From: Epilithonimonas arachidiradicis
GTDB lineage: Bacteria > Bacteroidota > Bacteroidia > Flavobacteriales > Weeksellaceae
DNA length: 64,000 nucleotides
Assembly: GCF_003610695.1 (NCBI RefSeq)
Contig: NZ_RAQH01000011.1
Location: 1-64,000 of the forward strand
Reading direction: 5' to 3'
Both the position numbers and the translations under genes were made by a program. The notes below the pieces were generated by a model. The model searched no databases. It had not been told where the DNA came from and worked only from the letters and a program-made list of their open reading frames with translations. Shown here in pieces: positions 18,279 to 34,132 of the stretch (positions are counted from its first letter, which is position 1; each line of letters opens with the position of its first letter).

Positions 18279-18287
18279 TATTAACCT

Positions 18288-18322
18288 AAAAACAAAAAGC
18301 CTAACATTATATCAGGCCTATT
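18288..18322 (-). terminator. terminator of the 45-residue gene
   Basis: Read leftward, GCCTGATATAATGTTAGGC can fold with wobbles and is followed by TTTTTGTTTTT. It starts about 10 bases past the small gene's stop. Confidence 0.55.
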
Positions 18323-18327
18323 AAAAG

Positions 18328-18465
18328 TTACTTTTTACGATTAGGATTCAGCTGTTTTCCTCTGTTCCCTTGGTTTTGGTCATACTGCTTATTAGTTCCT
18401 GCAGTTCCTTTGTTCGCATTCTTTGTATTAGAAGCGTTTTGTTGTGGTGTGATTTTGTTTTTCAT
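18328..18465 (-). CDS. small basic hypothetical protein (45 residues)
   Basis: Begins MKNKITPQQNASNTKNANKG and ends QLNPNRKK, using an ATG at 18465. It is very rich in Asn, Gln, Lys and Gly and has no hydrophobic core, so it is probably unfolded, like small nucleic-acid-binding or stress-related peptides. It has a start codon, a clean stop and a terminator, and it sits just downstream of the AAA/VWA-like pair on the same strand, separated by 16 bases. I do not recognise a named family. Confidence 0.6.
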   Translation of the reverse strand: MKNKITPQQNASNTKNANKGTAGTNKQYDQNQGNRGKQLNPNRKK

Positions 18466-18481
18466 TGTTTTAAAATTTTAA

Positions 18482-19279
18482 TTAGTAAGTATTTTTTAAA
18501 TGGACACCTTGATTTTGCAGTTGTTTGATAATCCAGTCAATCGCTTCAGCATTTCTAACCTTAAGACTAAAAATTTCATCTACATAGATGTCACCTTTTT
18601 GGCTGGCACTACACGGTCGCCCATAGGCATGAGCAAAGTCTGCCCAACCCTCCAACTCTGCCACCGAAAACATAATCCGTCTTAACATCGCCGGATGCGC
18701 AAGACAAAATGCCAGTTCAGCAAAATTGAGAGATTGGTTTGATTTTTTTATACAGACATCCACTTCAAGTTTAGACTCATAATATTGAGAGGTTTCATTT
18801 AAAATAATTTCGCATCGGTATCCTGACATTTCCAAGGCATCAACCAAAGCACAAACCATTGCGCCTTTCTGAATAATGACGTCTGAGTTTATCGCTGCCG
18901 AAACCGAAATATTACATACAATGGTCACTATTTTTCCTTTTATTTCTTGTTCTGCTATCTGTTTAGTCAAAAAATATTCAGGTGAGTTGCTTAAAAACAT
19001 GCCCACATCTACAACATTACCGGCAAAACAATATTCAGGATCATACCTTACAATTTTTGTAGCTACAACTTCCGACAGTTCTGCAGTGATTGACCTTACT
19101 TTTTCCATACCTTCCCACCAACCAGAAGTAGCAAGCTTTTTAGTTTGCTCCCATGTGACACCGCCATACCACTCTGATGCTGGTTTTCGTGAATCTTTCT
19201 TGTATGAAATGCTTTCTCTAAAAGAAAAATCCCAAAAGTCTTGAAGATTTCCAAACTGTAAATACCGATTACCAAACAT
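18482..19279 (-). CDS. degenerate VWA-like partner of the AAA+ ATPase
   Basis: 265 residues with no named family that I can assign firmly; it may belong to a DUF found next to AAA ATPases. Residues 116-160 (KIVTIVCNISVSAAINSD followed by a helix GAMVCALVDALEMSGYRCEI) have the layout of a von Willebrand A domain: a strand, a metal-site loop, then a helix and the next strand. The expected DxSGS metal site reads NISVS, so metal binding is probably lost. No signal peptide. It overlaps the upstream AAA+ gene by 11 bases, so the two are made together. In known AAA/VWA pairs (MoxR-, CobS/CobT- and RavA-type) the VWA protein is the adaptor. Confidence 0.6.
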   Translation of the reverse strand: MFGNRYLQFGNLQDFWDFSFRESISYKKDSRKPASEWYGGVTWEQTKKLATSGWWEGMEKVRSITAELSEVVATKIVRYDPEYCFAGNVVDVGMFLSNSPEYFLTKQIAEQEIKGKIVTIVCNISVSAAINSDVIIQKGAMVCALVDALEMSGYRCEIILNETSQYYESKLEVDVCIKKSNQSLNFAELAFCLAHPAMLRRIMFSVAELEGWADFAHAYGRPCSASQKGDIYVDEIFSLKVRNAEAIDWIIKQLQNQGVHLKNTY

Positions 19280-20324
19280 TGATATTATTTTTAATCAGTT
19301 CAACTCTCGAAGCTTCAAGTCCTTTCCACAGAACATCATTTTCAACATCTTGTCTCCTGATGCCAACTTTCAAAAGTTCTGCCCCTATGATAGAAGCTCT
19401 TGGACTTATTACAATTCGTTCATTTATTTTTGCAACAGCTTTTCTCACTTTCTGAACATAGCTGGTCCATTCATCATTTCCCGCCAGTTGACGTTCCAGA
19501 TTTTCATCAATTTCCCAAGACATAAAGATAAATCGATCAAGGCTCGCAGCGTCTAGTTGGTTTCTTCCTACATACTGTCGATCAGCTCCTGTTCCGTAGG
19601 TATTAGCGGCAGCAATACAATAAAAATCCTTATGCTTTTCTACTCTACCATCCGGAAAATCCATAAAGTCATTGGCCAATGCCGCATTGAAAGCTAATAT
19701 AGCTTGAGGAAAACTCGCATCTATTTCATCAAAAAGAAAAACACCGCCCTGCTCATACGCTTTCCTAAAATCAGTGGATACAATCTTTCCGTGCGCATTC
19801 ATAAAACCTGTTAATTTAAACTCACTGGTAATAGCACCTGTAAAATAAAACTCCATACCAAGCGCCTTGGCAATATTTTTTGCAGCGGTGGTTTTTCCCG
19901 AGCCAGCTGATCCTACCAAGAAAATATTATTTTTGGTCTGTACATATTTCAGTAGCTTTTCAAATTGATAATGCTGGAGACCAAGATCTTTGATTTTATG
20001 ACCATCCACAACTCGGATACTCACACTTCTATAGTTTCTTAATTTATCAATTCTACTATTCAGTTGCTTATTTTTTTCTTGTAATACTTGATGATTCTCT
20101 TGTAACTGGATAATTGTAGCTTGTAACTTCTTGATTTCAGAATTAGACCTCCCTAATTGAGATTTGAAAACGTGATCCAAATCTTTTTTCAGATTTAATT
20201 TAATGTCCTGTTCCACTTTGCTCTTTATGAGATCCAAATGTTGATGCACATAATTTTCAAGTACGCTATTACCATTTTTGTGATTCTCGGGTTTTGAAGT
20301 TCTGTGGCTTCTTTTAATTTCCAT
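19269..20324 (-). CDS. MoxR/CobS-like AAA+ ATPase
   Basis: 351 residues. A polar N-terminus and a coiled coil (about 55-97) precede an AAA_5-type ATPase: Walker A GSAGSGKT (138-145), Walker B VFLFDEID (195-202), sensor-1 region IAAANTYGTGADRQ (about 238-250) and an arginine in LDRF (264). The core resembles CobS and MoxR proteins, which remodel protein partners. It is 11 bases overlapped with the VWA-like gene. No helicase, protease or chelatase domain is present. Location beside restriction genes suggests, but does not prove, a defence role. Confidence 0.85.
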   Translation of the reverse strand: MEIKRSHRTSKPENHKNGNSVLENYVHQHLDLIKSKVEQDIKLNLKKDLDHVFKSQLGRSNSEIKKLQATIIQLQENHQVLQEKNKQLNSRIDKLRNYRSVSIRVVDGHKIKDLGLQHYQFEKLLKYVQTKNNIFLVGSAGSGKTTAAKNIAKALGMEFYFTGAITSEFKLTGFMNAHGKIVSTDFRKAYEQGGVFLFDEIDASFPQAILAFNAALANDFMDFPDGRVEKHKDFYCIAAANTYGTGADRQYVGRNQLDAASLDRFIFMSWEIDENLERQLAGNDEWTSYVQKVRKAVAKINERIVISPRASIIGAELLKVGIRRQDVENDVLWKGLEASRVELIKNNINVW

Positions 20325-20380
20325 AATAGTTTTTAAAATTGTTTGTTATACCATAGACTTATCAAAACAGCATCCGAAAA

Positions 20381-20419
20381 CAAAAAAAAAGCGTTTCCGA
20401 AAAACATCATCGGAAACGC
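20381..20419 (-). terminator. terminator of the LytTR regulator gene
   Basis: GCGTTTCCGA (20391-20400) pairs perfectly with TCGGAAACGC (20410-20419) around a 9-base loop. Read leftward it is followed by nine T. Confidence 0.9.
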
Positions 20420-20456
20420 AGGAACAAAAGCTTTTTATAGAGGAACAAGAGCGGTA

Positions 20457-21218
20457 TTAGCCCAACTCTTTTTTAATGACACTTTGGTAATTTTCAGACA
20501 CAGGCAGATGCAATTTTTTCGTTTTACCCTGTCCGTCATACACCGTAATTTCTACAGTCTCTGTTTTTTTATGATAACATTGGATATACTTCCTGTTCAC
20601 ACGGAAAGACTTATGAATCGTGAGAAACTGACTTTTCAGCAGACCTTTCTCCTCCATCTTGGAAAATGAGAAGTCAATCAGGTTCTCTGGCTTGCGGTCG
20701 ATGAAATAGATCTGCTTATTGTTGGACTCAGATCCGGCTTGTTTATCGGCACATAGATAGACAATGTTGTCCAGTAGAATTTCGTTTCGCTTGCTTTTAT
20801 TAAAGTCAAGATACACATATTGGAGTTTTGCAAAAAGAGACACCTCCTGCAGAAACCGCTTAAAGCTCTTCACAAACTGCTCCTCCTTGAAAGGTTTGGT
20901 AATATGATCCACACAGATTTCAGCTTCCCGCTTCAGATTTTCAATATCCTCTATATAGTCTGCTGTATTTACGCTGGCAAAGAACACTGGCATTCTCACT
21001 TCCTGCGCCACTTCCATTCCCGTCATACTATCATTACCAAGGTCAAGATCTGCTACTAGGATATCAGGATGAGCATTAGGAAACTCCTGAAAAAAGTGAT
21101 CCGAATCTCTGCTTTTCAGCACGATCTGGACATTCGGGATTTGGTTGAGATAGGCTTCCAGCTTATCCAGCTGTTTGCTGTTGTCTTCTAGAATGGCGAT
21201 GCGGTGGGTGTGGTGCAT
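20457..21218 (-). CDS. LytTR-family response regulator
   Basis: 253 residues: receiver domain (about 5-130) with Glu 11/Asp 12, a phospho-acceptor Asp in ILVADLDLG (57 or 59) and Lys in DHITKPF, then a LytTR DNA-binding domain (about 150-250) with SQFLTIHKSFRVNRKYI. No histidine kinase is adjacent, so it is an orphan in this window. Its ATG lies inside the 3' end of mcrC (31-base overlap on the same strand), so it may now be read from the restriction operon. A strong terminator follows. Confidence 0.9.
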   Translation of the reverse strand: MHHTHRIAILEDNSKQLDKLEAYLNQIPNVQIVLKSRDSDHFFQEFPNAHPDILVADLDLGNDSMTGMEVAQEVRMPVFFASVNTADYIEDIENLKREAEICVDHITKPFKEEQFVKSFKRFLQEVSLFAKLQYVYLDFNKSKRNEILLDNIVYLCADKQAGSESNNKQIYFIDRKPENLIDFSFSKMEEKGLLKSQFLTIHKSFRVNRKYIQCYHKKTETVEITVYDGQGKTKKLHLPVSENYQSVIKKELG

Positions 21219-22465
21219 AGTTTAATTTCATCAAAAAGGTTTATTATTTTTTCTCCAAGCAATACATCCAATTCATTAGCTTCATTGAATATTGTAATTT
21301 TTCCTAATCCACATTGATGATTGGAATCTTTATCAGTTGGAACAAAAGGTTTAAAATCATTTAAATGACTGCTGTTAGATGGGTAAAGTAAAAGAGCTCT
21401 GGTACTTTTCCAATACTCATTGTACACATACATCTGCCTCAGGTCGTGAGTGGATGGTTGAGATTGATCGATATTTTTCCATTTGGTGTCAACAATCAGA
21501 ATATCTTTAGTCTTATCATCTATTTTCTTTTCCAAAACAATATCTGGTCGAATAGTAATCCCGTTCCAAAATTCCAAAGAGTTTTGTCCATATACCTCAA
21601 CTTCTTTCTCCTTCGCAACTTGTTTTAATCTTACCAAAACATACTCTTCCCAAAGACTGTTCATATCAAAAAGCAAAGCCAGCATATTCTCTGATCCACT
21701 TGAAACATTGGGTGCATAATTCAGAATAATGAGTCTGGCGATAGCTAAAGCCGTTTCGTAAGGCGCTGTTTTTCTTGATTTGGGGATTTTACTGAAAGTG
21801 TTTTCATTAGCATTGATGGTTTTCACTTCCGGAAAATCAAGTTGTACAGTTTTGCATTGGCTGTAGAGATAAGTTCCTTTTGAAAGATGGGCAACGATAT
21901 CCAAAGCCTGACCTAAAATCTGATGAATCAGATGGTCTTTTTCATATACCTGATGCGTGGTATAAAACCGTTCTTTATGAACTAAGTTTTTATTGATATG
22001 ACCTGCAAATTCCAGTTTTCCCTTCAAAGCCTTTACATTCCCCGTCTGTTTATAATACTGTTTTATTAAGCCTTGATGAATAAGTAACTGCACCTCACTC
22101 AAAAACCATTCAAAATAAATATCCAAAAGATGAATCGACTGTCTGGAAACATTGGCTTGCCCTACTTGCTGAATCTTCAGCTTTTTGGTCACTTTCAACA
22201 TTTCTATCAGAACCTTTTGCCACTTGGCTTTGTTATCTTTACTTTCAGATTCGTAACGGTCTATTTTAGGCAGAATTTCTATTATTAAACCATCCACCTG
22301 AATGACACCGACGAATTGTTTGAAGACGACGCCATTATGTTTCAAATCAAAATACTTGTAATCGTGCAGCGCATTGAGTTTTGATAACGCTTCAAAATGC
22401 TGCTTCTCAAAACCACTTTCTCCAATAGCCAGAAAACTATGTTCAAAAACCTGAATTTTAGACAT
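21188..22465 (-). CDS. mcrC: McrC-family nuclease subunit of a McrBC system
   Basis: McrC partners the McrB GTPase and cuts modified DNA. 425 residues from ATG 22465; the ATG overlaps the mcrB stop in ATGTCTAA, a coupled start, whereas the frame's earlier TTG is unlikely. The C-terminal half carries the PD-(D/E)xK nuclease: RPDIVL, then ILIVDTKWK with the Asp-x-Lys, followed by QMYVYNEYW. The N-terminal half is the family's McrB-interacting region. Its last 31 bases also encode the start of the LytTR regulator, and the tail KLCTTPTASPF may be an extension. Confidence 0.92.
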   Translation of the reverse strand: MSKIQVFEHSFLAIGESGFEKQHFEALSKLNALHDYKYFDLKHNGVVFKQFVGVIQVDGLIIEILPKIDRYESESKDNKAKWQKVLIEMLKVTKKLKIQQVGQANVSRQSIHLLDIYFEWFLSEVQLLIHQGLIKQYYKQTGNVKALKGKLEFAGHINKNLVHKERFYTTHQVYEKDHLIHQILGQALDIVAHLSKGTYLYSQCKTVQLDFPEVKTINANENTFSKIPKSRKTAPYETALAIARLIILNYAPNVSSGSENMLALLFDMNSLWEEYVLVRLKQVAKEKEVEVYGQNSLEFWNGITIRPDIVLEKKIDDKTKDILIVDTKWKNIDQSQPSTHDLRQMYVYNEYWKSTRALLLYPSNSSHLNDFKPFVPTDKDSNHQCGLGKITIFNEANELDVLLGEKIINLFDEIKLCTTPTASPF

Positions 22466-24491
22466 TTGTTTCTTCAACTTTTTTATTCATTAAAATTTGA
22501 ATTGCTTTAATGATTTCAAAATCTTGATTAATGGTTTTCAATCTAAAAAAACGACCGCCTTGTGGATAGTTTTCTGTTTGAAACTTGGCAAATAAAGAAT
22601 TGTCAAATTTCTCAAACTCTTCAAAAAATTCCATTCCCAATACCATCCCAATCTTTTCATAATCTCCATAAAAATACTCTTGCAGCAATGGGATAATATT
22701 ATTTTTGAATGTATTTCTAAGGTCATTTTCATTTTTAACATTGATAAAATAAGAATGCCCTATAGTGTGATCTCTATCCAATAAAACTTCAATTCTTTTG
22801 TTGATGATAGTCAATACTTCCTCTAGGTTAACTGTCCCAATATTCTTATCTTTCAGTAGGAAAGGTTTAGGTAACATTTCTTCAAAGGTAAAGCGTCTTC
22901 TAAGTGCGGTATCAAGAGCTTCCACACTCCTGTCTGCCGTATTCATCGTACCGATAATGTAAAAATTAGATGGAACACCAAATTCTTTTTTGCTGTAAGG
23001 CAATTTAACTTCCAGACTTTCATCTGCATCTAGTCTTTTACTTTCTTCAATCAAAGTAATAAGCTCTCCAAAAATTTGAGAAACATTTCCTCTGTTGATC
23101 TCATCGATGATTAATACATACTTTTTAACATTTTTATTTTGGAGAGATTGTTTATCTAATGCATCAAATTGATCTTTTATTTCCTCATAAGATTGATCTT
23201 CATAATTGAAATATATGGTCTCTATTTCTCCTTTATTAGCAATTACAAATTCATAAAAAGACTTGTAAACAGCAAAAAGTTCACAATGTATATGCCCTAC
23301 AATAGGATGTAATTCAGCTTTTAAACTCTTTACTTTATCTGGTTCAATACCTTCTAATAGAACTTTCTTGAGTTTTTCTTTAGTTACGCTAAATGTATGT
23401 TGTCCTTCCTCTGTCTTATTTTTATTACTCCAAAGATATTTTACCAGAATCGAGTTTTCATTGGCATCAATCAACATTATCTCTACTCCTGTTTTGGTTG
23501 TAAAGATACCTTCTCTCTTGTTTTCAAAATCCTTAATACTATTAATGTAAGAGTTATAAATAGAATCAAAATCATCAGATTCTGAAACTTCATCATCTTT
23601 ATCCAGATACTCAATCAAAGCTTTCTTTACAAATGATTTGAATAATCCGTCTTCGACAGAATAGGTTACCTGTTCATTTTTTGTTTGTGGTTTGATCCCT
23701 TCTACAAAATCCTCATAACTCATACTTTGATGAAAAGTAGTGAAGACCACCTGTCCAGATTCAATATAACTTTCAAATCGTTGTTTTAAGTCATTTCTAT
23801 TTTCATCCTTTAGCTCAATCTCATATTTATTTTCAAGAATTGATATGGCTTTATTAATCGTATTGTAAGTCTTTCCGGTTCCGGGAGGTCCATAAAGAAT
23901 TTGGTTGAGAGGCATATGTATTGGAGTGTTTTTATTTGTATAAAGTGTATCAGAGTTTAATTTAAAATATTCTTTTAAGAATGTTAAATAATTGTTTTTC
24001 CCTAATATAGCAGTAGGACGATAATTGCCTTTCTCTCTACCATTTTTTGAAAAAGAAGGAGAATTGCTGTAAACATTTTTACTTATCTCATTATATTTGT
24101 TTTGAGCATCTGTAACATCAATTAAAAATAAATCTGTCTCAAAGTCTGTTTTGTACCACTTTTCATAGCTATCAATCTCGGATTCAAACCGTTCCATATT
24201 GCCATTGAACTGTTTAGAAAAGTATGTTTTGAGTTCCTTTTCTTCTCTAGATACAAACCAATTAATAAATTCTTTTTTTACATCTCTAAAAACTAAATTC
24301 CTGACTTTCTCTCCCAATGTTTCTTCAAATTGAAATAGCGCCTTTTCTAATTTGCTAAATATATCTTGGTCTTGAAAATCAATGTTATTTTCAAAAGCTA
24401 TACTGTTCTCTGTTCCTCCGTGATCACTATTCCAAAAAAAGCCTTCAGGTAATTGATCAGTTAACAAACTTTTATTTTCTATTCCTAACAA
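22458..24491 (-). CDS. mcrB: McrB-family AAA+ GTPase of a McrBC system
   Basis: GTP-driven translocase of methylation-dependent restriction. An N-terminal region of about 190 residues, unlike the usual DUF3578 as far as I can tell, is followed by the AAA_5 motor: Walker A GPPGTGKT (201-208), Walker B VLIIDEINRG, the family signature GTMNTADRSVEALDTALRRRF. Only TTG is available near the start; the one chosen lies 20 bases inside the upstream gene, so translation is probably coupled to it. The start is therefore uncertain by a few codons. The novel N-terminus and upstream gene probably set which modified DNA is recognised. Confidence 0.9.
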   Translation of the reverse strand: MLGIENKSLLTDQLPEGFFWNSDHGGTENSIAFENNIDFQDQDIFSKLEKALFQFEETLGEKVRNLVFRDVKKEFINWFVSREEKELKTYFSKQFNGNMERFESEIDSYEKWYKTDFETDLFLIDVTDAQNKYNEISKNVYSNSPSFSKNGREKGNYRPTAILGKNNYLTFLKEYFKLNSDTLYTNKNTPIHMPLNQILYGPPGTGKTYNTINKAISILENKYEIELKDENRNDLKQRFESYIESGQVVFTTFHQSMSYEDFVEGIKPQTKNEQVTYSVEDGLFKSFVKKALIEYLDKDDEVSESDDFDSIYNSYINSIKDFENKREGIFTTKTGVEIMLIDANENSILVKYLWSNKNKTEEGQHTFSVTKEKLKKVLLEGIEPDKVKSLKAELHPIVGHIHCELFAVYKSFYEFVIANKGEIETIYFNYEDQSYEEIKDQFDALDKQSLQNKNVKKYVLIIDEINRGNVSQIFGELITLIEESKRLDADESLEVKLPYSKKEFGVPSNFYIIGTMNTADRSVEALDTALRRRFTFEEMLPKPFLLKDKNIGTVNLEEVLTIINKRIEVLLDRDHTIGHSYFINVKNENDLRNTFKNNIIPLLQEYFYGDYEKIGMVLGMEFFEEFEKFDNSLFAKFQTENYPQGGRFFRLKTINQDFEIIKAIQILMNKKVEETNV

Positions 24492-25152
24492 TTAATTCGT
24501 AGTGGCAAAATCCATCCCTTCCTATAATTCCTTTGCTATCTGATATCCAAACATAACTATCATAGACCGTTTGAATTTCAAAATCTTTGATTAGAATATC
24601 TTCACTTTTTATATAATCTTTAAAATCATAAACAACCTGTTTAAATTTGGAGTAATATTGTTCTGAATCTGAAAGATAATTATCTAATAAATTAGAATCT
24701 TTGGCAATATTATAAAGCTCTTCAATATGATGTTTTCTATACTGAGAACGCTCTTGTTTTGGTAAATAGCTGGTACAGCTTTTCAGCCAATAGTTTGTAA
24801 TTAATTCTTGATTATTAAGGAATTCATCTAAACTGAAAGAAACATTAAAAGAAGCAGGTTCATAATTTCCGAAAACGTCTTTATCAATATGAGGAATGTT
24901 TTCAAAAAGATGCCAATCATCTTTGTTAATCATAAAGCCAAATTCTTCTCCTCCTTTGATATAAAGCACCAACCTGCTGTTAATATTCACAGAAAATCGT
25001 TTCCTAGAATCGTTTCGTACATTCAACACAAGACGCTCATCATCTGCAGAAAGATTATTTTCTGTAATCAGTTGGTCAATTAAATTGAAAAAAAGTCTTA
25101 CTGCTTTTGGATGTGCAATAGTATCAATTCTTCTTTTGATATCGAGATTCAT
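24472..25152 (-). CDS. unrecognised protein coupled to McrBC
   Basis: 226 residues from ATG 25152. I do not recognise a family. Features: N-terminal helical segment (HPKAVRLFFNLIDQLITENN), a beta-rich middle (RFSVNINSRLVLYIKGGEEFGFMIN, then DDWHLFENIPHI), a helical part and a C-terminal strand pair (DSYVWISDSKGIIGRDG, CHYELIVRNRK). No signal peptide or membrane segment. It precedes mcrB with a 20-base overlap, so it belongs to the same operon. Likely an added DNA-recognition or regulatory subunit of the restriction complex. Confidence 0.75.
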   Translation of the reverse strand: MNLDIKRRIDTIAHPKAVRLFFNLIDQLITENNLSADDERLVLNVRNDSRKRFSVNINSRLVLYIKGGEEFGFMINKDDWHLFENIPHIDKDVFGNYEPASFNVSFSLDEFLNNQELITNYWLKSCTSYLPKQERSQYRKHHIEELYNIAKDSNLLDNYLSDSEQYYSKFKQVVYDFKDYIKSEDILIKDFEIQTVYDSYVWISDSKGIIGRDGFCHYELIVRNRK

Positions 25153-25232
25153 TTAGTTATTAGTTTTATTTTTTATTATTTTCTATTTACCCTCTTTACT
25201 TCTTTCCCCCAATATTGCCGCCACATCATTCT

Positions 25233-25829
25233 CTACCTTCCAAACTCAAACCTCGCCAACCTCAAATACTGCAACCTATACCGCAAAGCAGCTTCCGAAA
25301 CACCATATCGCTTCGTAAGTTCATCTCGGATTAACACCCAAATCCCGAAAGTATAATCATTTTTGACTAACAAAAAATCTTTGATTTTCTTTCTACTTCG
25401 GTTTTCTAAGATGCTTAAAAATGCTACTTTTACTTTTTCCTCGGGCATTAAAAAGCAACTTGCAAAATAATTGGCTTCTCTTTCAATGGGGTCAAATTGG
25501 TTACCTTCTTCTGCAATATCCGTATTGGAGCAATAGATGGAATTATCCTTTAACTGATGTGCTAAAAAATAATGTCCCAACTCGTGAGCAATCGTAAAAT
25601 GCCTGCGACCTGTATTGTCGATATTTCCATTGATGAAAATATAGCTTTTCTGTCCAGTATTTCCTTTAGTGAGTGCGCCGACAAAATTCTGATTAGCACT
25701 GTTAATTTCTTTAAACACAATCCCTTCTTCCAACATAATATCTTCAAAGAGTTTGTAGCTTCCGCCTCTTTTTTGATATTTTGTTAAAACACCATTTACG
25801 ATAGCTTCTATTTCACTATTTGTCTTCAT
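25233..25829 (-). CDS. ImmA/IrrE family metallo-endopeptidase
   Basis: 198 residues with a zinc-peptidase core: TIAHELGHYFLAHQ gives His 82, Glu 83 and His 86, and EREANYFASCFLMPEE supplies the third ligand (Glu 116 or 118). ImmA-type enzymes cut a repressor, often an XRE protein encoded next door. No XRE gene is adjacent here. It overlaps the end of hsdS by 14 bases and so is made with the type I system. The C-terminal segment (YGVSEAALRYRLQYLRLARF) is the usual one for the family. Possible job: cleaving the HTH regulator at 32975 or a toxin-like partner. Confidence 0.9.
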   Translation of the reverse strand: MKTNSEIEAIVNGVLTKYQKRGGSYKLFEDIMLEEGIVFKEINSANQNFVGALTKGNTGQKSYIFINGNIDNTGRRHFTIAHELGHYFLAHQLKDNSIYCSNTDIAEEGNQFDPIEREANYFASCFLMPEEKVKVAFLSILENRSRKKIKDFLLVKNDYTFGIWVLIRDELTKRYGVSEAALRYRLQYLRLARFEFGR

Positions 25830-27333
25830 CGTTCATAGCATCGAAGAGTTCTCTAAGGGTATCTTTATCCAAACTTCCTCTTGCCGCAAGACCTTGTTGA
25901 GAGACCCACAGTTCAAAACGTTCATCATACCAGGCGGCAGTTCTCTCCACTGGTGTACTATATTCTTTTGTATCAGCTTCCGCAACAATTCTTAAAATCT
26001 CCTTAGGCTGAACATACTTTTTAGAAACAACTTTCTTAGCTTTCCCCCCATTCTTCAACGCCACAATCTCCTCCAGCAAATCTTTGGCATCTCCATCAGT
26101 CTCCAACTGCTCGCTCAGCTCCCCTTTGAAAGCTTTGTGCAAAATAGTCTGTGGCAAAGTTTCTATTTTGGTTTTTAGTTTTTTGTATTTTTCTTCTATG
26201 GCATCTGCTTTGGCAAATAGACTTTCTACGCGGGAAACGATTTCTTGCTGTTCTTCAAGTGTAGGTATTTTAATATTTATTGATTTTAAAGCTGTTAAAC
26301 TTAAAAAAGGTTGCGCTCCTCCTCTAACTTGATTAGTGAGTATTTCTGCTTTATGCTTATCAAAAGAAAACTTTAAAAATCTACCATTAATGATATCTCG
26401 TTTAGGTTTGACAATTGCAATGTTTTTAAAACTAAATTCAATATCTGTATCAATTAAAACATTGTTTCCAGTTCCAGCTCCTATATTAACAATTAATAAA
26501 TCCCCTTTTTCAGGTTTACATTTATTATAAAGTTCTTGATGATCTTTTTCACTAATAAAATTATTTTGGCTAAAGTCTAAAAAACCACCTGTTAAATCTT
26601 TTGCCATTAAATAAGGATAACCAGTTTCAAGTACTTTTGGCACATTGTGAGCTCCATCGGTAATTTTAACAGAAATTTCTCCTAGCAAATAAGATTTCCA
26701 ATCTTCCAACTCCTTCCCCTCTCTCCATTCTTCTGTCAATTTTCCTGTCATCGCCTGCGTCAAAACCTGCTGACGAAAGTTCTTCAACAAAACCGGGATT
26801 TTTTCCATTGAGCTTTTTATCACTTCCAACTGACCAAATAAGCGATCTAACTTTTCTACAATGCGGTTTTGCTCGGATAAAGGTGGAAGTGGAAATTTTA
26901 ATCCAGAAAGCTTCGGAGCATTAATATTTTGTACGGCAATTCCTGCGGAAACATCAGAAATTGCATTCCAATAATCAGATGATTTTAAATAATACTCAAT
27001 TAATTTAGCATTTACATAAGGTTTAAATCTAATCAAATATGAAGCAAAAACAGCTTTTTCAGGAGATTCTTCTATCCTATAACTTAATCCTACTGAGCCT
27101 GCTCTTGAAATTAATATATCATCTTTCTCAACTTGGTATTTTGAAATATCATCTGGAATATCTATACAGAATGGCACTAAATCCCAATCAACTTTCCCTC
27201 GACTTAAATCTGTTGTTCTTAAATATTTTACATCACCATCTATACCTGCCTTTGAAGTCCATCCATACTGAGGTTTTGTAGTGATTTCACCTAATACAGT
27301 TTCTACCCAATTCTTTGGCAATTCCTTCTCCAT
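25816..27333 (-). CDS. hsdS: type I restriction system specificity subunit
   Basis: 505 residues with two target-recognition domains. TRD1 (about 5-150, NWVETVLGEIT ... AVQNINAPKLSGLKFPLPPLSEQ) and TRD2 (about 212-365, DWKSYLLGEIS ... FLSLTALKSINIKIPTLEEQ) each end with the family's conserved 'ipPl.EQ' segment, followed by a helical spacer (RIVEKLDRLFGQLEVI; EIVSRVESLFAKADAI). A C-terminal extension of about 80 residues is unusual and basic (KAKKVVSKKY). It shares one base with hsdM (TAATG), so translation is coupled. Confidence 0.95.
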   Translation of the reverse strand: MEKELPKNWVETVLGEITTKPQYGWTSKAGIDGDVKYLRTTDLSRGKVDWDLVPFCIDIPDDISKYQVEKDDILISRAGSVGLSYRIEESPEKAVFASYLIRFKPYVNAKLIEYYLKSSDYWNAISDVSAGIAVQNINAPKLSGLKFPLPPLSEQNRIVEKLDRLFGQLEVIKSSMEKIPVLLKNFRQQVLTQAMTGKLTEEWREGKELEDWKSYLLGEISVKITDGAHNVPKVLETGYPYLMAKDLTGGFLDFSQNNFISEKDHQELYNKCKPEKGDLLIVNIGAGTGNNVLIDTDIEFSFKNIAIVKPKRDIINGRFLKFSFDKHKAEILTNQVRGGAQPFLSLTALKSINIKIPTLEEQQEIVSRVESLFAKADAIEEKYKKLKTKIETLPQTILHKAFKGELSEQLETDGDAKDLLEEIVALKNGGKAKKVVSKKYVQPKEILRIVAEADTKEYSTPVERTAAWYDERFELWVSQQGLAARGSLDKDTLRELFDAMNDEDK

Positions 27334-28793
27334 TAATTCAATTCTTTTATCATTGCATTCAATTGCTCGGTAATGCTTTGCAGTTCTGCTAAAGCGTCTT
27401 TGGCGATATCAATCGGCTCTCCCAAATCTTCGCTGTTGCTCAGGCTACTGTCGGCAATCAATCCTAAGTCGAGGCTGTAGTTTTTCTTTTCTATTTCTGC
27501 CAGAGAAATGCACTGCCATCTTTCATCGGTAATGGTTTTTCTTTTCTCTTCATCTATTTCGGCTTCATAGTTTTTCATTACGTCATCTGCACAAATGCCA
27601 CCGGTGTAAGCGGTAATAAAATCTTCAAAAGCTTTTTCGGTAAAAGGCGTACGCTTCCCAAAACTCGGCATATTGGTACGCATATCGTAGAACCATACGT
27701 TTTGGGTATTGGCTTCATCATTTTTACCTCGGGTAAAAAACAGGACATTGGTTTTCACGCCTGCTGCATAGAAAATTCCTGTAGGCAAACGTAGAATGGT
27801 ATGCAGATTACACTTTTCCATCAGGTCTTTACGGATGCGCTGTCCGTCTCCATCTTCAAACAAAACATTATCGGGTAAAACCACAGCGGCACGGCCAGTT
27901 CCATCAGTAATCAAACTTCGGTAGATATGCTGTAAGAAATTAAGCTGTTTGTTGCTCGATACATATTTAAGGTCGTTTCTGGTAGGCTTTTCTCCTCCTT
28001 TTTTGGTTCCAAATGGCGGGTTGGCGAGTACGCCGTTGTAGCCTTTCAGGTTTTCTCCCAGACTGGTTAAAGTATCACCAAGATAGATGGTACTTTCCAT
28101 TCCGTGAAGTCGTGCATTCATCAACGCCAAACGGTGTGCATCACCCACCAGCTCAACGCCTGAAAAAGCTTTTTCTTCCTGAAATTTTATCTGGTCAGCA
28201 TTTAAGGTATAACGGTAATCGTATTTTTCTTTCAGATAATGGTCTGCCGAAATCATAAATCCAAAAGTTCCGCAAGCGGGATCGTTCCATTTCTCGCCCA
28301 ATTTAGGAGCCATCAGTTTTACCATCACATTGATGAGCGGACGTGGCGTAAAGTATTGTCCTGCTCCACTTTTCTTTTCACCCGCATTTTTCTCCAATAG
28401 ACTTTCATAGATGTCACCCATTACATCACGGTCAGATTCTTCATACCAGTCTAAATCGTCTATCGCCTTTACCAAAGTATTAAAGTTCACTGGCTTCGTC
28501 AACGTAGTAGAAGCATTGGTATAAATATCTTTGATGGATGCGCTGTCGGTTTTACTGCTTACAGTAGCCAAAAACTCACGATACAATCTGAAAGCTTCAA
28601 TATTATCCGTTTCCTCCGTAAACTTCGCCCATCGGTATTCTTCAGGAATCTGCTCTGCAAATCCTTTTACTTCTGAAAGTTTCAGAAAAAGGATGTAGGT
28701 CAATTCGTTAAGATATTGGTGGTAGGTAACCCCGTCATCACGGAGTACATTACAAAGATTCCAAAGTTTATTGGCTATTTCCTGTGCGCTCAT
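27333..28793 (-). CDS. hsdM: type I restriction system N6-adenine methyltransferase
   Basis: 486 residues. HsdM_N helical domain (about 5-130), then the N6_Mtase: AGQYFTPRPLINVMVKLM, the SAM-binding motif DPACGTFGFMISA, and the catalytic motif NPPFG in GVLANPPFG. It adds methyl groups to adenine at the site chosen by HsdS and is needed for both protection and restriction. Start ATG 28793 is 3 bases before the GIY-YIG stop, so expression is coupled to the gene upstream. Confidence 0.95.
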   Translation of the reverse strand: MSAQEIANKLWNLCNVLRDDGVTYHQYLNELTYILFLKLSEVKGFAEQIPEEYRWAKFTEETDNIEAFRLYREFLATVSSKTDSASIKDIYTNASTTLTKPVNFNTLVKAIDDLDWYEESDRDVMGDIYESLLEKNAGEKKSGAGQYFTPRPLINVMVKLMAPKLGEKWNDPACGTFGFMISADHYLKEKYDYRYTLNADQIKFQEEKAFSGVELVGDAHRLALMNARLHGMESTIYLGDTLTSLGENLKGYNGVLANPPFGTKKGGEKPTRNDLKYVSSNKQLNFLQHIYRSLITDGTGRAAVVLPDNVLFEDGDGQRIRKDLMEKCNLHTILRLPTGIFYAAGVKTNVLFFTRGKNDEANTQNVWFYDMRTNMPSFGKRTPFTEKAFEDFITAYTGGICADDVMKNYEAEIDEEKRKTITDERWQCISLAEIEKKNYSLDLGLIADSSLSNSEDLGEPIDIAKDALAELQSITEQLNAMIKELN

Positions 28794-28796
28794 ATA

Positions 28797-29582
28797 TTAT
28801 GTGTTTCTTGCTGTTATTCTGCATTTATCTTTTGCCATTCTCAGCTCCGCTAATGCAAGAGGATTGTGGCTATCATTCAGCAAGGGTTTCAGTTTGCAAA
28901 TTAAATGTTTTTCTTCCTCAAAATTGCTAGTTTTAAAAACGGCAATCTCTAAATTATTTTCGATCCAAAAGATAATTTTCTTTTGGTCTTCCTTTATAAA
29001 TTTATAATTATTTTGATTTGACTTTCCGTGTAATGATCCTGCCTCCGGTAGGTATCCTAAGACTGCACCAATACTTCTGAAAAAAGTTCCGTGACCTTTT
29101 GCAAAAAGCTCTTGATTTAATCGCTCTTTAAGTGTTTGACCTTGTGCTTTACCAACATATATAATTTGATGTTCTCTTTCAGATAAAAATTGCTGGAAAG
29201 GTTTTGGTAATAAACATTTCTCTTTTAGTCTTAAAGAATATAAACCATAAAAGTTCAATTCATTAATAAAATCTCGATTGATAGTAGAATATTCAACAGC
29301 TAGTAAATTAAAAACAGAAGTAGAAACCTCTTGAAATTTTTGTTTTGTTGTACTATTAATTTTTGAAGTAGGGATATTAGAAAGGATTTTTATTTTCCCA
29401 CTAGAAATTAATTTATTAAAATCCGAAGAGGTTATATTCCTTATATTAAAGTCAGTCATACGAAAATCAAGCTTCTGCATTTTGCGTCTAGCTTTTTTTC
29501 GGTCTTCCGCACTGTCTGACTTTTCATAAGTAATGACAAGACCTCTTAACCTTTCAATTATTTCTTCTGAAAAATTCATCAT
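28797..29582 (-). CDS. GIY-YIG domain protein within the type I operon
   Basis: 261 residues. An N-terminal helical region of about 110 residues (ERLRGLVITYEKSDSAEDRKK...) is followed by a GIY-YIG fold: NFYGLYSLR, IIYVGKAQGQTLKERLNQEL (YVG and Arg), and a downstream acidic/Asn segment EEKHLICKLKPLLNDSHNP. The catalytic Arg and Glu are present, so it may be an active nuclease. It sits between hsdR (1-base overlap, TAATG) and hsdM (3-base gap), an unusual place. Function in the type I system is not known. Confidence 0.8.
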   Translation of the reverse strand: MMNFSEEIIERLRGLVITYEKSDSAEDRKKARRKMQKLDFRMTDFNIRNITSSDFNKLISSGKIKILSNIPTSKINSTTKQKFQEVSTSVFNLLAVEYSTINRDFINELNFYGLYSLRLKEKCLLPKPFQQFLSEREHQIIYVGKAQGQTLKERLNQELFAKGHGTFFRSIGAVLGYLPEAGSLHGKSNQNNYKFIKEDQKKIIFWIENNLEIAVFKTSNFEEEKHLICKLKPLLNDSHNPLALAELRMAKDKCRITARNT

Positions 29583-32500
29583 TATGCAGAATATAAATCA
29601 TTATTTAACTCAACAATCAAATCTTCTAATTCATTATTGAAAATTTTATTAATTCTATTAAAACCTCCTTCATCTAAAAACGGTTTCAAATCAAGATCTT
29701 TCTTAGTTAAAATGCTTTCAGCAAGCAATTGCTTTTCAAAACGGTCAATCCATTTTAACTGATGAATATTCCAGTCTCTACTTGATTTAATCTTACTAAT
29801 CGCATTTTTCACACGCTCTTGTGGTGAAATAAGGTCAACACCCATAGAAAGAGTTCTGATGTATGCGATAATATCTGCTGCAATGTCTATATTTTTTGCA
29901 GATTTCCAAGCTGTATTGAGAGAGATTTCATTGAAACCTTTTTCATCAAGAATCAACTTTAATTCTCTCAAAGATTTCCGATCCAATTCCTGAGGTTTAT
30001 TACAGATAATGTTGATGGCTGCAATGGTGTTGATGTTTTCTGCAATGAATTTCTTGAAGCCTTCAATGTAATCTTCCGGCTTTTCTGCATTGCCATAACC
30101 ACGGGTGACTTCTTTTACAGAATCTTCGTGAGTTGAATAGACTTGTGTGTACTTCTTATAAACTTTGTTATCCAGATAGTTCCAAAGTGAACTGAGTTGC
30201 TCTACTTTGCTTTTTATTTCGGAACTGGGCGTATTTTTCAAATCGGCAATGAGTTCAGCGATTGACTTTCCATCCGTATGAAGTTTTATATGTTCCTGTT
30301 GATGCGTTTCTATCAATTTTGATTTGCGTTGTAGCTTCGCAACGATTTGCTCGATTTGGCTGTTTAGTCTTTGCTCATTAGTAATCTTATCAGTTTCTGC
30401 TACCAACTGTTCAAAACTGTAAGACGGATTAGAAACGGTTTGCATTTGGGTATAATCCTGCAACGCTTCGTATAATCTCACCGCATCATAAATTTTAAAC
30501 GCTTCTTTTCCTATTTCAGGACAAAGACGGGTAGCTCTTCCCAACATTTGCTCATACAGAATACGGGATTGCACACGTCTCATAAAAACAATATTGCAAA
30601 TCGAGGGAACATCTACTCCTGTACTGAGTAAATCTACTGTGATGACAACGTTTGGATATCTTTCGTTTTTAAAATCTCTTGTAAGTTGAGCATTATCGTA
30701 AACACTTCCGGTAATTTTTTCAATAGCTTTGTTGTGAACGTCTACACCAATGTTTTGAAACTCTTCTTTCAGCATATACAAAATAGTATCTGCGTGGCTG
30801 TCTCTCGCTGCGAAAATCAAAGTCTTTTCATTGCCGTTTGGATCTAAATTTTCCGCTAAATATTTTACAACTGCTCTGTTGAAGTTATCATTAAGAACCT
30901 GTTTATTGAAATGCTCTACATCAAATTTAAGTTCATCGTCTAAAGCTTCAAGGTCCGTAATTTCTCCTGTCTCAGCATCATAAGCTTGAGGTTTTTCGCC
31001 TTTTTCCCATTTAATCCCTTCAGAATTGAGATTAGTGGAAATATTGTAAGGAGGTTCGTGATCCACCAAGTTACCATCTATGACAGCTTGTCTATAAGAA
31101 TAATCAAAAACAGAATCTCCGAAGATTTCTTTTGTATGCAAAGCTGGTGTGGCAGTCATTCCAATTTTAAAGGCATCGAAATAATCCAGTACCTTTCGGT
31201 ACTGTGCTACATAATCGTCCTCATTTCTAATACCAAAATCATCCTCGTTCATTTCTTTATCCAGCTGATAACCTCTGTGCGCTTCATCAACAATTACACA
31301 GTCATAAGTATCCACAGTTAAAGGATTTTCAGAATAAAAAAGTCGTTTTACCATACTCTGAACCGTTGCAAAATGAAGTCGGGTTTCAGAATCGGGCTGT
31401 GTTATGCTGGTGTCTTCAAATTTATAAATCCCTCCAAACGATTGTTGATCTTCTATTTTATTTTCTTTAACGCTGTCTTTTGCTTGTGAAGCAAGCAATG
31501 TTCTGTCTGTTAAAAAAAGAATTCTTTTGAAACGGTTGGCTTTAATCAATCTATAAATCAATCCGTTGATTGTCCTTGTTTTTCCGGTTCCGGTTGCCAT
31601 TACTAGCAACGCTCTTCGGTCTTGTGGGTATTCAATTAATTTATTTTCAACTGATTTGATGGCTTCTATTTGGTAATCACGAAGATTGAGACCTTGCGGA
31701 GAATTTAGATAATCATAATCGCTATCTGTCAGTTTTTTATTCGCTGATTCTGTATCACGTTCATAAATTTCTTTCAGTCCATCAGGAGAAAGCCATCCGC
31801 GTAAAGGATAAGCGTGATTGGTATTAATTCGGATATCCTGAAACCATATACCGCTTTTGGTTTTTATTTGCTCAAGATATTTTCTGCCATTCGTAGAGAA
31901 TAGAAAAGGAGCTTTCAAGTTCTCCCATTTACCCAGAAGTTGAAAACTATCGTTAGCTGTGATTTTTTCTGCATATACTTTAGATTGTCGCAAATCAGTT
32001 GAAATATCAAGTCTATATTTCTTTGCTTCTACCAATCCATACAACTCCAATCCTATAAACAATGCGTAGTCTGCATATTTACTACCACAAGGCCATTCTG
32101 CTATCGCAATATTTCGCCCTTTTTCGGGAAGTGTTTTATGGTATTTATAATTGATCTTTTCAGTATCGCATTCCCATCCTGCATCTCTTAACTGTTTATC
32201 AATCAATTCGAGTCTGGTTTCCTGTTCACTCCAGTCAATTCGGTTTGCAGATTCAATTGATTTAACCCTTCTTGAGTTAATCGTCTGTTTCGATTGATTT
32301 AAGATTTCAATCTTATTTTGATAATCTTGGATTTGCTCAGCTAAATCTGCTAACTTTTCATTCAGCTTTTCAGTTTCAACTTTAGATTGCTCTGGTGGGA
32401 GTTCATAAACTTTAGCTTCAACATAGTCATTCTCATAGGTTTCGTAGAACCATCTTGAAAGTGTAAATAGTTTTTTAAGAACAAAGAGAGCTTGCTGTTT

Positions 32501-32803
32501 GGTACTTTCTCCATTATGTGAAGCATCATTACCAGATTTTCTAATAGTATGAAAGAGTGAACCTATTGCATCAGGAAACACATTTCTATTTTGCAGAAAC
32601 TGGATAGACTCCACTTGATTTCTGCCATTCAGATTCTCAACTTCCAAATCTGCAATTAGCTTAATAAGCTTTTCACCAAAAAGTCTGGCTTTTGAGATAG
32701 AAGAACTTGCGTCCACATAATACAAACTTTCCGCAAGCCTTGCTTGATGAAATAACGAAGGATAAGCCTCACAAAGAAAATTAAAACTAGACAAATCTGC
32801 CAT
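29582..32803 (-). CDS. hsdR: type I restriction system motor/nuclease subunit
   Basis: 1073 residues. Order: DUF4145-like helical domain (about 1-115), coiled coil (about 140-185), PD-(D/E)xK nuclease (about 195-300) with Asp 245, Glu 259 and Lys 261 in YADYALFIGLELYGLVEAKKY-like sequence, then the helicase: Walker A ATGTGKTRT (about 403-411), DEAH in IVDEAHRGY (about 506), the SF2 motifs STGVDVPSICNIVFMR and LGRATRLCPE, and a C-terminal EcoEI-type domain. It translocates DNA and cuts at collision. ATG start at 32803; TATATTTG promoter box 29-36 bases upstream. Confidence 0.95.
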   Translation of the reverse strand: MADLSSFNFLCEAYPSLFHQARLAESLYYVDASSSISKARLFGEKLIKLIADLEVENLNGRNQVESIQFLQNRNVFPDAIGSLFHTIRKSGNDASHNGESTKQQALFVLKKLFTLSRWFYETYENDYVEAKVYELPPEQSKVETEKLNEKLADLAEQIQDYQNKIEILNQSKQTINSRRVKSIESANRIDWSEQETRLELIDKQLRDAGWECDTEKINYKYHKTLPEKGRNIAIAEWPCGSKYADYALFIGLELYGLVEAKKYRLDISTDLRQSKVYAEKITANDSFQLLGKWENLKAPFLFSTNGRKYLEQIKTKSGIWFQDIRINTNHAYPLRGWLSPDGLKEIYERDTESANKKLTDSDYDYLNSPQGLNLRDYQIEAIKSVENKLIEYPQDRRALLVMATGTGKTRTINGLIYRLIKANRFKRILFLTDRTLLASQAKDSVKENKIEDQQSFGGIYKFEDTSITQPDSETRLHFATVQSMVKRLFYSENPLTVDTYDCVIVDEAHRGYQLDKEMNEDDFGIRNEDDYVAQYRKVLDYFDAFKIGMTATPALHTKEIFGDSVFDYSYRQAVIDGNLVDHEPPYNISTNLNSEGIKWEKGEKPQAYDAETGEITDLEALDDELKFDVEHFNKQVLNDNFNRAVVKYLAENLDPNGNEKTLIFAARDSHADTILYMLKEEFQNIGVDVHNKAIEKITGSVYDNAQLTRDFKNERYPNVVITVDLLSTGVDVPSICNIVFMRRVQSRILYEQMLGRATRLCPEIGKEAFKIYDAVRLYEALQDYTQMQTVSNPSYSFEQLVAETDKITNEQRLNSQIEQIVAKLQRKSKLIETHQQEHIKLHTDGKSIAELIADLKNTPSSEIKSKVEQLSSLWNYLDNKVYKKYTQVYSTHEDSVKEVTRGYGNAEKPEDYIEGFKKFIAENINTIAAINIICNKPQELDRKSLRELKLILDEKGFNEISLNTAWKSAKNIDIAADIIAYIRTLSMGVDLISPQERVKNAISKIKSSRDWNIHQLKWIDRFEKQLLAESILTKKDLDLKPFLDEGGFNRINKIFNNELEDLIVELNNDLYSA

Positions 32804-32831
32804 ACATTATGATAAATTAGTTTTTCACTCC

Positions 32832-32875
32832 CAAATATAACCAAAAACCCAATCCCATACATACGTTTTTCCGTA
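32832..32875 (-). promoter_or_regulatory. hsdR promoter region with candidate operator
   Basis: Read leftward, TATATTTG (32832-32839) is a full -7 match. Just upstream lies TACG-N6-CGTA (32862-32875), an inverted repeat at about -33. That is where the divergent HTH protein could bind. The operator part is inference. Confidence 0.4.
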
Positions 32876-32974
32876 CTCCGCAAAAAAATCATAAAAGCCC
32901 AATCATATTTTCAACCCAAATCACAAAACCAATTAAAAATTTTTATTAATTTTAATCTCCAAAAACCCAATAAT

Positions 32975-33238
32975 ATGAAAAAAATACTACAATCAGAGGT
33001 AGCGCAACACTTAGCGCAATCTCATTTGGCAAACAATTTCCCATTCAATTTATCGGATATAGACTTATCCAAGGACTTATTGACAGACAAAGATGTACTC
33101 AAGTTATTTGGCATCTCAGAAAGAACACTGTCCAATCACAAGAAAAAAGGATTAATATCCTATTTCAAGATGGGCAGCAAAACAATGTACCTCAAACCCA
33201 TTTTAATGATGGACATCCTCAAGATCTACAACGATTAA
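32975..33238 (+). CDS. HTH_17-type DNA-binding protein
   Basis: 87 residues. The C-terminal half LLTDKDVLKLFGISERTLSNHKKKGLISYFKMGSK is a MerR-like 'helix-turn-helix domain-containing/excisionase-like' motif found in Bacteroidota, ending in a short strand and helix (MYLKPILMMDILKIYND). It is divergent from hsdR with 171 bases between them, the usual place for a controller of a restriction operon. It could also be an excisionase left by an integrated element, although no integrase is nearby. Confidence 0.8.
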   Translation: MKKILQSEVAQHLAQSHLANNFPFNLSDIDLSKDLLTDKDVLKLFGISERTLSNHKKKGLISYFKMGSKTMYLKPILMMDILKIYND

Positions 33239-33257
33239 AATGTTACAAAACCAAATA

Positions 33258-33284
33258 AGCAGACCTCACAGTCTGCTTTTTCAC
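33258..33284 (+). terminator. terminator of the HTH gene
   Basis: AGCAGAC (33258-33264) pairs with GTCTGCT (33271-33277) around CTCACA, followed by TTTTTC. Confidence 0.8.
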
Positions 33285-33357
33285 TACCAAATCCCGTCAG
33301 TCCGACTACTGTACCTTTGGTGGATGTATCAAAACCAATTGTAAAAAACGGACAACT

Positions 33358-33476
33358 TACGTCAGTTCGAGTGTTTTCGTAGCATAGTGAAGAAAATATA
33401 TCGAGAACAATTCATAAAAAACTAACACCAATTTCTAGATACAATTCGCCTATCAGCGAATCACTCGAAGTGACGA
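33358..33476 (+). repeat. full-length cloverleaf-like palindromic repeat, copy A
   Basis: Outer arms GTCAGTTCGAGTG (33361-33373) and CACTCGAAGTGAC (33462-33474) pair nearly fully. Inside are a left hairpin region (33374-33395), a middle stem TATATCGAGAA / TTCTAGATACA (about 33397-33407 with 33433-33443) and a perfect right hairpin ATTCGC / GCGAAT (33444-33449 with 33456-33461). The fold has three branches on one stem. Confidence 0.75.
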
Positions 33477-33500
33477 TTGATTGAACGACTAAGGGATAAT

Positions 33501-33553
33501 TTACGTCAGTTCGAGTGTTTTCGTAGCACAGCGAAGAAAATATATCGAGAACC
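33501..33553 (+). repeat. half copy of the palindromic repeat family
   Basis: GTCAGTTCGAGTGTTTTCGT (33505-33524) through TATCGAGAACC. Left half only, same orientation, ending 37 bases before the stand-alone GIY-YIG start codon. Confidence 0.75.
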
Positions 33554-33589
33554 TCAATTATTTCTTACATTTAATAAAACACAAATTCT

Positions 33590-33880
33590 ATGCTTTCATC
33601 TTATGTTTATATTTTAGAATGTTCTGATGGGACTTATTATACAGGCATCACAGAAAATGTTTATAAGCGTTTTGAAGAACATCAAGAGGGCAAATACTTT
33701 GGCTCCTATACTTTCAGTAGAAGACCTGTACAGTTGGTTTACTTTTGTCATCTTATGGATATTGAACAAGCAATTACTTTTGAAAAGAAGATTAAAAAAT
33801 GGTCAAAAGCCAAGAAGCTTGCATTGATAGAAGATCGTTTTGAGGATTTACCAAATCTAGCTAAAAAGAAGTTTAAGTAA
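33590..33880 (+). CDS. stand-alone GIY-YIG nuclease (UPF0213-like)
   Basis: 96 residues, nearly all GIY-YIG domain: YVYILECSDGTYYTGITENV holds both sequence signatures (in the YVY-YTG variant), KRFEEHQ the conserved Arg, and QAITFEKKIKKWSKAKK the Glu helix. This is the small UPF0213/YhbQ-like group, whose role is not settled. ATG 33590. It is flanked on both sides by copies of the palindromic repeat in the same orientation, with no other gene between. See findings. Confidence 0.88.
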   Translation: MLSSYVYILECSDGTYYTGITENVYKRFEEHQEGKYFGSYTFSRRPVQLVYFCHLMDIEQAITFEKKIKKWSKAKKLALIEDRFEDLPNLAKKKFK

Positions 33881-33924
33881 ATTAATGGATAAAGTACAGT
33901 AAGAATCTTCAATAACTAAAAACC

Positions 33925-34048
33925 AACTCTCGTCAGTTAGAGTGTTTTCGGAGCACAGCGGAGAAAATGTATCGAGAACCGGTAGTACAAAACACCAACT
34001 TCTCAATACAATTAGTCTAACGACGAATCACTCGAAGTGACGAGAGTT
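33925..34048 (+). repeat. full-length cloverleaf-like palindromic repeat, copy B
   Basis: The outer arms (33925-33944 and 34029-34048) match at 18 of 20 positions. The middle stem is TGTATCGAGAA (33968-33978) with TTCTCAATACA (34000-34010). A left hairpin (33945-33967, TTTTC...GAAAA) and a right hairpin (34011-34028, TTAGTC...GACGAA) lie between the stems. Confidence 0.8.
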
Positions 34049-34090
34049 CAGATTACTTTACAGGTATATCTTCTATAAAATCCGCAACCA

Positions 34091-34132
34091 ACAACTAACA
34101 ACTAACAACTAACAACTAACAACTAACAACTA
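34091..34132. repeat. six tandem copies of a 7-base unit
   Basis: ACAACTA is repeated six times without error. The last unit contains the TAG stop codon (read leftward, 34130-34132) of the DKNYY gene. Copy-number change would therefore lie just past the stop and not alter the protein. Confidence 0.9.

Follow-up and report, generated by a model that had tools for sequence, protein, structure and literature searches.

A small GIY-YIG nuclease gene among GTCA-tagged palindromes: a candidate REP system run by a nuclease

We analyzed a stretch of 64,000 nucleotides from the genome of Epilithonimonas arachidiradicis, and we call this whole stretch the window. It carries a small gene for a predicted GIY-YIG nuclease, which together with the palindromic repeats around it (type A) forms a cassette at the right end of a 16-kb segment. 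The features that we refer to are the following.

17966..34124, no strand assigned: segment without counterpart in the relative G022, which joins its matches of 17965 and 34125 over about 165 nt
18071..18122, forward strand: half of a type-A repeat, near the segment's left end (core search)
18225..18278, forward strand: another type-A half repeat near that end (core search)
33358..33476, forward strand: full type-A repeat, an inverted pair of GTCA-tagged hairpin units (left half 33361-33409, inverted right half 33424-33476)
33501..33553, forward strand: type-A half repeat upstream of the gene (left-half unit 33505-33553)
33590..33880, forward strand: small predicted GIY-YIG nuclease gene, UPF0213-like, 96 aa (PF01541, E=1.4e-17)
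33925..34048, forward strand: full type-A repeat downstream of the gene (left half 33932-33981, inverted right half 33991-34043)

An earlier note on this DNA had placed the gene and the repeats around it at these positions, and a re-reading of the coordinates confirms it. The nearest repeat, the half repeat that ends at 33553, is separated from the ATG of the gene by 36 bases. The note also had all the repeats pointing the same way. Because each full repeat is an inverted pair of half units, this stands for the pairs taken as wholes and for the left halves, but it does not hold within the full repeats, where the halves are inverted and the GTCA tags look outward. The inverted pairs of the window are 33358-33476 and 33925-34048, and its other three copies are single halves.

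By its domain and its conserved residues, the product of 33590-33880 is a small UPF0213-like GIY-YIG protein, with a predicted nuclease role. Residues Y7, Y17, R27, H31, and E65 are invariant in alignments of 20 and of 47 GIY-YIG sequences, and we take the Y, R, and E among them to be the catalytic positions. When an AlphaFold model of the protein (mean pLDDT 90.9) is compared with the PDB using Foldseek, the list is headed by two UPF0213 proteins, 1ZG2 (E=5e-6) and 1YWL (E=2e-3); ranks 3 to 12 are all Slx1, with weak E-values of 0.02-0.1, and the GIY-YIG domain of UvrC is also a weak match (E 0.5). A profile search finds no Y1 HUH transposase in the gene, where the GIY-YIG and T5orf172 models alone match, and an NCBIfam search reports no matches at E <= 0.001. 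PF01541 has three matches (E <= 0.001) in the genome: this gene, which is the sole intact small one, a 603-aa frame inferred by size to be UvrC, and a frame with four stops adjoining tRNA-Met genes.

A type-A unit combines a basal stem of 4 bp with a GA/GA mismatch and an extended apical hairpin, and it carries a CGTC or TGTC tag at one hairpin end (ACGTCAGTTC, TCGTCAGTTA). The repeat has six matches in the 3.65-Mb genome, the sixth at G000:C3:71647-71702, and a search for its 19-nt core, allowing at most 3 mismatches, gives five places in the window, where 100 shuffles give 0.01 on average. The folding of the two full repeats beats 200 of 200 shuffles (z -5.4 and -6.1), and that of the half repeat 33501-33553 is not above shuffles (z -0.8). 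As single-stranded DNA, 33925-34048 is predicted to form an outer stem with three inner arms. Such a branched fold might plausibly be a substrate for a GIY-YIG enzyme of this kind.

The limits of the 16-kb segment come from the comparison with G022, in which the two matches lie only ~165 nt apart; therefore the window has about 16 kb extra. The G022 DNA to the right of the segment is 94% identical to the window. Type-A repeats lie 105 nt inside the left end of the segment and 76 nt inside the right end, and these end regions hold five of the six type-A matches of the genome. The repeats may have brought the segment in, or may themselves have inserted close to where it ends. The segment encodes a McrBC-family protein and its AAA partner, the specificity, methylase, and restriction subunits of a type I restriction system, and also DUF7192 and IrrE-like proteins. 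A second protein with a GIY-YIG domain (PF20815, E=9e-29) is encoded at window positions 28797-29582, between the type I methylase and restriction subunits.

Are small GIY-YIG genes flanked by repeats elsewhere? We compared the upstream DNA of each such gene to its downstream DNA, using no motif, and counted a score of 22 or more as a pass. In the first form of this test, 32 of 44 genes of relatives pass (with L003 and the UvrC-size loci excluded, and with no ORF found in L049 and L055), compared with none of 20 UvrC genes, these controls being assigned by length. Seven of the 32 passes are among 10 loci that were later excluded as tRNA-linked, and the remainder is 25/34. For the named genomes, a set made of the best 80 of 504 loci in the scan, of which 77 are testable, 48/77 pass versus 5/131 control ORFs from the same loci. 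Short flanks led to the removal of L040 and, among the named loci, of L148, L174, and L176.

Some ORFs extend into the downstream repeat, so in the refined form of the test, devised after this run-on was noticed, the downstream flank begins at the end of the domain; the controls are genes with gaps of at least 70 nt on both sides. The refined test is passed by 84 of 110 small GIY-YIG genes (30/33 in relatives, 54/77 in named genomes) and failed by 26, while only 3/53 controls pass, with a p of 6e-19 that is nominal because the rows are related. Leaving out six poor rows, one with the ORF on the wrong strand (L078) and five with truncated frames (L125, L139, L162, L164, and L167), the count is 80/104; L115 and L046, which have the same protein, are apparently the same strain. 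Ten tRNA-linked loci had been removed before arriving at the 110, one of which, L054, has no tRNA according to ARAGORN and would have passed. In the 110 loci themselves ARAGORN reports no tRNA and one tmRNA, in a locus that fails the flank test. Judging by record titles, passes outside the Bacteroidota occur in Ignavibacteriae, Nitrospinaceae, Chloroflexi with Dehalococcoidia, Omnitrophota, Myxococcales, and Proteobacteria. Small GIY-YIG genes are thus flanked by repeats above chance in several phyla; the earlier note had proposed to check for such an excess in this genome and related ones.

Two side observations belong here. The ORFs of L045, L046, L050, L068, L070, L081, and L115 extend into sequence that resembles the repeats, which adds tails such as DKGFDSAQPDN. 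And hairpins are found near further genes outside the tested sets.

The top enriched tetramer in 84 shared segments is GTCA, present in 75 of them versus 41.9 expected, often as CGTCA or TGTCA and joined to a hairpin. In most Bacteroidota loci the unit has the form GTCA-N3-Y-GAG...CGA-R-N3', and type A follows this plan except that its apical hairpin is longer. The three-pair stem covaries: 262 of 291 cells are paired, compared with 144.8 +/- 7.5 (maximum 168) when the partner arms are shuffled. All stem pairs are formed in 77 of 97 distinct units, and the closing pair in 119 distinct units is T-A in 75 and C-G in 25. Of the 77 genes that have a hairpin on each side, 47 have both nearest hairpins looking outward.

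The class of hairpin follows the protein tree, with 16 changes compared with a mean of 43.5 and a minimum of 36 when labels are shuffled. The class patterns were written after the flanks had been read; they cover 103/110 genes, and they match 6/160 and 20/335 control stretches. Flanking similarity reduces the 104 tree rows to 72 locations. Using one row per location, the 67 labelled rows require 16 changes versus 34.5 (minimum 28 in 2000 shuffles), and 12-nt types present at at least two locations require 29 versus 37.2 (minimum 32). The tree is short (106 columns, with 49 of 100 inner branches open), and for this reason we make no finer claims from it. The location-collapsed test replaces a same-genus class test (27 rows and 10 types, with 9 changes, the fewest possible, and a shuffled minimum of 14), the result of which is mostly due to shared locations. 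Two or three GIY-YIG genes with differing hairpin types are found together in six genomes. The gene itself seldom moves, and many loci are syntenic and vertically inherited (104 rows, 72 locations).

One could argue that dispensable genes in loose intergenic DNA passively gather whatever dispersed repeats there are, and the 3/53 control genes also flanked by shared repeats are what that would look like. Passive accumulation is nonetheless very improbable in view of the difference between 76% and 6%, the fit of class to clade, and the outward orientation.

REPs are abundant repeats of many bacterial genomes, and for the GTAG REP superfamily the enzyme is known, RAYT. Among the matches listed in a search of open-access PMC (bioRxiv not included), no title or beginning of an abstract ties GIY-YIG genes to REPs. 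The 2013 survey of CGTC repeats by Di Nocera, De Gregorio, and Rocco (PMC3733652) has no word starting with "giy," and PMC1564403, in the portion of text available, does not mention flanking repeats. After the hypothesis was framed, we fetched later loci and examined 14 of 36 matching records, 12 of them from Proteobacteria. The same flank score is reached by 11 of the 14. In eight, the gene lies between CGTC/TGTC hairpins (Neisseria, Aeromonas, Azospirillum, Rhizobium sp. CIAT894, two Shinella, Neorhizobium, and Sphingobium), and a ninth, Sinorhizobium (L326), has weaker ones, also on both sides. In Photobacterium and Spirosoma the hairpins are one-sided, and the Rhizobium tumorigenes GIY-YIG locus has no repeat.

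Hairpins of the same kind are also dispersed. The pattern GTCANNNYGAGC-N2,3-GTCGAR is found in 21 of 79 genomes of the order, in up to 64 copies, while its reversed control has one match over all 79. The window's genome has 43 such YGAG-type copies (48 using a looser pattern, with 2 for its reversed control), and despite them it has no YGAG-type GIY-YIG gene. Similarly, G072 has 20 orphan YGAG copies and G060 has 14, each genome with one PF01541 match, and G003 has 11 type-A matches and a single PF01541 match, of UvrC size. The hairpins may outlast their gene, or another agent may spread them. Over the 79 genomes, at least two PF01541 matches are present in 19/21 of those with the YGAG pattern versus 24/58 of those without it (p=9e-5). 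This co-occurrence is gone once the comparison is confined to the 31 genomes that measure 2.4 Mb or more (16/17 vs. 13/14), which is why we do not use it as support. As a separate observation, the YGAG hairpins at nine places in the window's genome (for instance L292, L294, and L301) often form pairs with a similar spacer of ~30 nt and with the GTCA tags inward, in contrast to the outward arrangement at most GIY-YIG genes.

A second subfamily of small GIY-YIG genes abuts tRNA genes, often in the order tRNA, GIY-YIG gene, partial tRNA copy. Examples are G000:C3:10062-10265 (L003, the copy in the window's genome, with four stops), L043, L044, L052, L074, L083, L261, L264, L275, L284, L286, and L288. 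An extra partial tRNA copy of at least 30 nt is present in 12 of 21 loci tested, as if the gene had been inserted into a tRNA gene, with some of these matches inflated by similarity to other neighboring tRNA genes. Tandem GIY-YIG genes ~360 nt apart occur in L274 (three), L275 (three), and also L271 (L275 is in G063, the other two in G062), and a tRNA-Arg fragment is present in each tandem unit of L275. By coordinates, G062:C34 has eight GIY-YIG genes in a row. Other GIY-YIG genes lie less than ~600 nt from a tmRNA gene (L268 in G056, L285 in G053, and L151).

Hairpins without a matching gene are also what one would see if the gene were that of a homing endonuclease, parasitising palindromes spread by another agent by cutting and inserting at repeats of its own type. 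The sister subfamily, whose partial tRNA copies resemble site-specific insertion, fits that idea as well. A site where the cassette is present in one genome and absent from others bears on it. In Azospirillum lipoferum 4B the cassette splits sufB-sufC, with an inverted CGTC hairpin pair on each side of the gene. Five other Azospirillum replicons (from 22 further matching Azospirillum records) have neither a GIY-YIG gene nor a tagged hairpin at sufB-sufC; the two genes are there 32 to 129 nt apart, with flanks ~90-97% identical, and the empty site of B510 has an untagged inverted repeat of its own. Since these empty sites have no tagged hairpin, it seems that the gene came in along with its REP pairs, at a place where no REP had been. 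At this one locus that would speak against homing, though the recognition site may be of another kind. Against homing there is also the report that CGTC repeats are not associated with transposase genes, a dedicated transposase apparently lacking (PMC3733652, in the portion available). We consider the homing explanation unlikely. Judging by coordinates, the GIY-YIG gene of Shinella sp. PSBB067 likewise lies in the sufB-sufC interval, and for that reason this may be a favored place.

Other sites differ in a similar way. Among 22 genomes of the window's genus, the murG-murC interval holds a cassette in 4, a gap of 47-49 nt in 3, a gap of 8 nt in 2, and some other sequence of 427-686 nt in 13. 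A type-A cassette directly beside the 318-aa gene of the window's neighborhood is found in G009 alone out of 20 genomes, and none of the 6 relatives compared has a counterpart of the hairpin pair C1:741773-741844 of the window's genome at the corresponding site; these last two differences may reflect loss in place of gain. Empty sites, for which the earlier note had suggested a comparison of strains, are seen here between related genomes, for cassettes as well as for hairpin pairs, at sites that otherwise match. We considered a target-site duplication at the hairpin pair of L301 and rejected it: overlaps of ~17 nt hint at one, and no exact duplication is seen by eye. On a different matter, a type-C cassette between conserved neighbors is inverted in G022 (L241) relative to five genomes (L242-L246), which recombination between inverted repeats would explain as well.

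On the other hand, nothing might move at all. The nuclease could process cruciforms as host housekeeping, or the hairpins could serve the gene by terminating its transcription or stabilising its mRNA. The branched-DNA nuclease Slx1 is the next PDB match after UPF0213 (with weak E-values, 0.02 and above), many loci are vertically stable, and in two Bacillus-type loci the gene overlaps both operon neighbors and leaves no space for repeats, all of which would suit a housekeeping role. Yet whole cassettes and hairpin pairs are present in some genomes and absent from their relatives, and six genomes keep two or three GIY-YIG genes with differing hairpin types. We regard housekeeping as quite improbable.

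The reading that we favor, and believe probable, is that of a REP system with a GIY-YIG nuclease as its enzyme, in which GTCA-tagged (CGTC/TGTC) palindromes would go with their own dedicated nuclease gene lying between them. Its basis is in the sequences: tagged and mostly inverted flanking hairpins, a pairing constraint on the stem, the fit of class to clade, dispersed kin hairpins, and presence/absence differences. There is good support for the association of gene and hairpin, for its generality, and for its specificity. It is likely that the nuclease acts on its own hairpins. That it would also spread them is reasonably inferred, with serious cautions from the orphan hairpins, the vertical stability, and the co-occurrence lost after the size cut. 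In the mechanism that we propose, the protein would recognize its own hairpin extruded as a single strand or a cruciform, and would cut near the GTCA tag. Repair of the break would then place a copy of the hairpin pair, and at times of the gene too, at a new site. The nuclease would act on hairpins as RAYT does on REPs, yet without being an HUH transposase.

The GIY-YIG family is a strong candidate for the missing spreading machinery of one of two large palindrome families. A more general reading is possible, if somewhat doubtful. Small GIY-YIG nucleases would be dedicated mobilisers of the CGTC REP superfamily by structure-specific cutting and break repair, with no transposase; the same protein family would give rise to minimal elements in tRNA genes, and the repeat pairs would be able to carry larger cargo, such as the 16-kb restriction segment. 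With a candidate whose gene lies between hairpins of its own in several phyla, the question of the CGTC-REP enzyme becomes directly testable. If the proposal is true, dispersed repeat families could be sustained by a nuclease whose family, to our knowledge, is not known for strand transfer.

How does this compare with known systems? The UPF0213 proteins (1ZG2, 1YWL, and Bacillus YazA) share with the 96-aa protein the domain and a comparable size and fold, whereas in the two Bacillus-type loci the gene belongs to an overlapping operon. Slx1 has the GIY-YIG fold in common with the predicted model, but it is far longer and has a partner, Slx4 (PDB titles).

CGTC REPs have, in the available portion of PMC3733652, stems of 8-9 bp, loops of 4-5 nt, and CCA-like tails, and they occur mostly in inverted (HH) pairs. 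The repeats described here share with them the CGTC/TGTC tag at one hairpin end, the inverted pairs, and the dispersed copies, and their stems, loops, and tails are matched beside the genes of Neisseria, Aeromonas, Azospirillum, Rhizobium sp. CIAT894, Shinella, and Neorhizobium. Type A differs in its short basal stem, its mismatch, and its extended apical hairpin. Because it lacks the combination of 8-9 bp stem, 4-5 nt loop, and CCA-like tail, type A is CGTC-REP-like and not a strict member.

The GTAG REPs and REPINs with their RAYT (TnpA-REP) are alike in that a gene has its own hairpin type, with inverted tagged hairpins on its flanks, hairpin pairs elsewhere without the gene, and a tetranucleotide beside the hairpin. 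A gene surrounded by its own inverted hairpin family is what we find for most, and not for some, of the small GIY-YIG genes. The RAYT gene is largely stable, as the GIY-YIG gene is here (PMC6006769, in the portion available). The comparison with RAYT made in the earlier note is apt, given the inverted tagged hairpins around one gene, the dispersed kin hairpins, and the presence/absence sites. The two systems differ in their tag, GT[AG]G for RAYT and GTCA/CGTC for the GIY-YIG-linked repeats, and in their enzyme, which is a Y1 HUH transposase in the RAYT system and, in that of the window, a predicted GIY-YIG nuclease instead.
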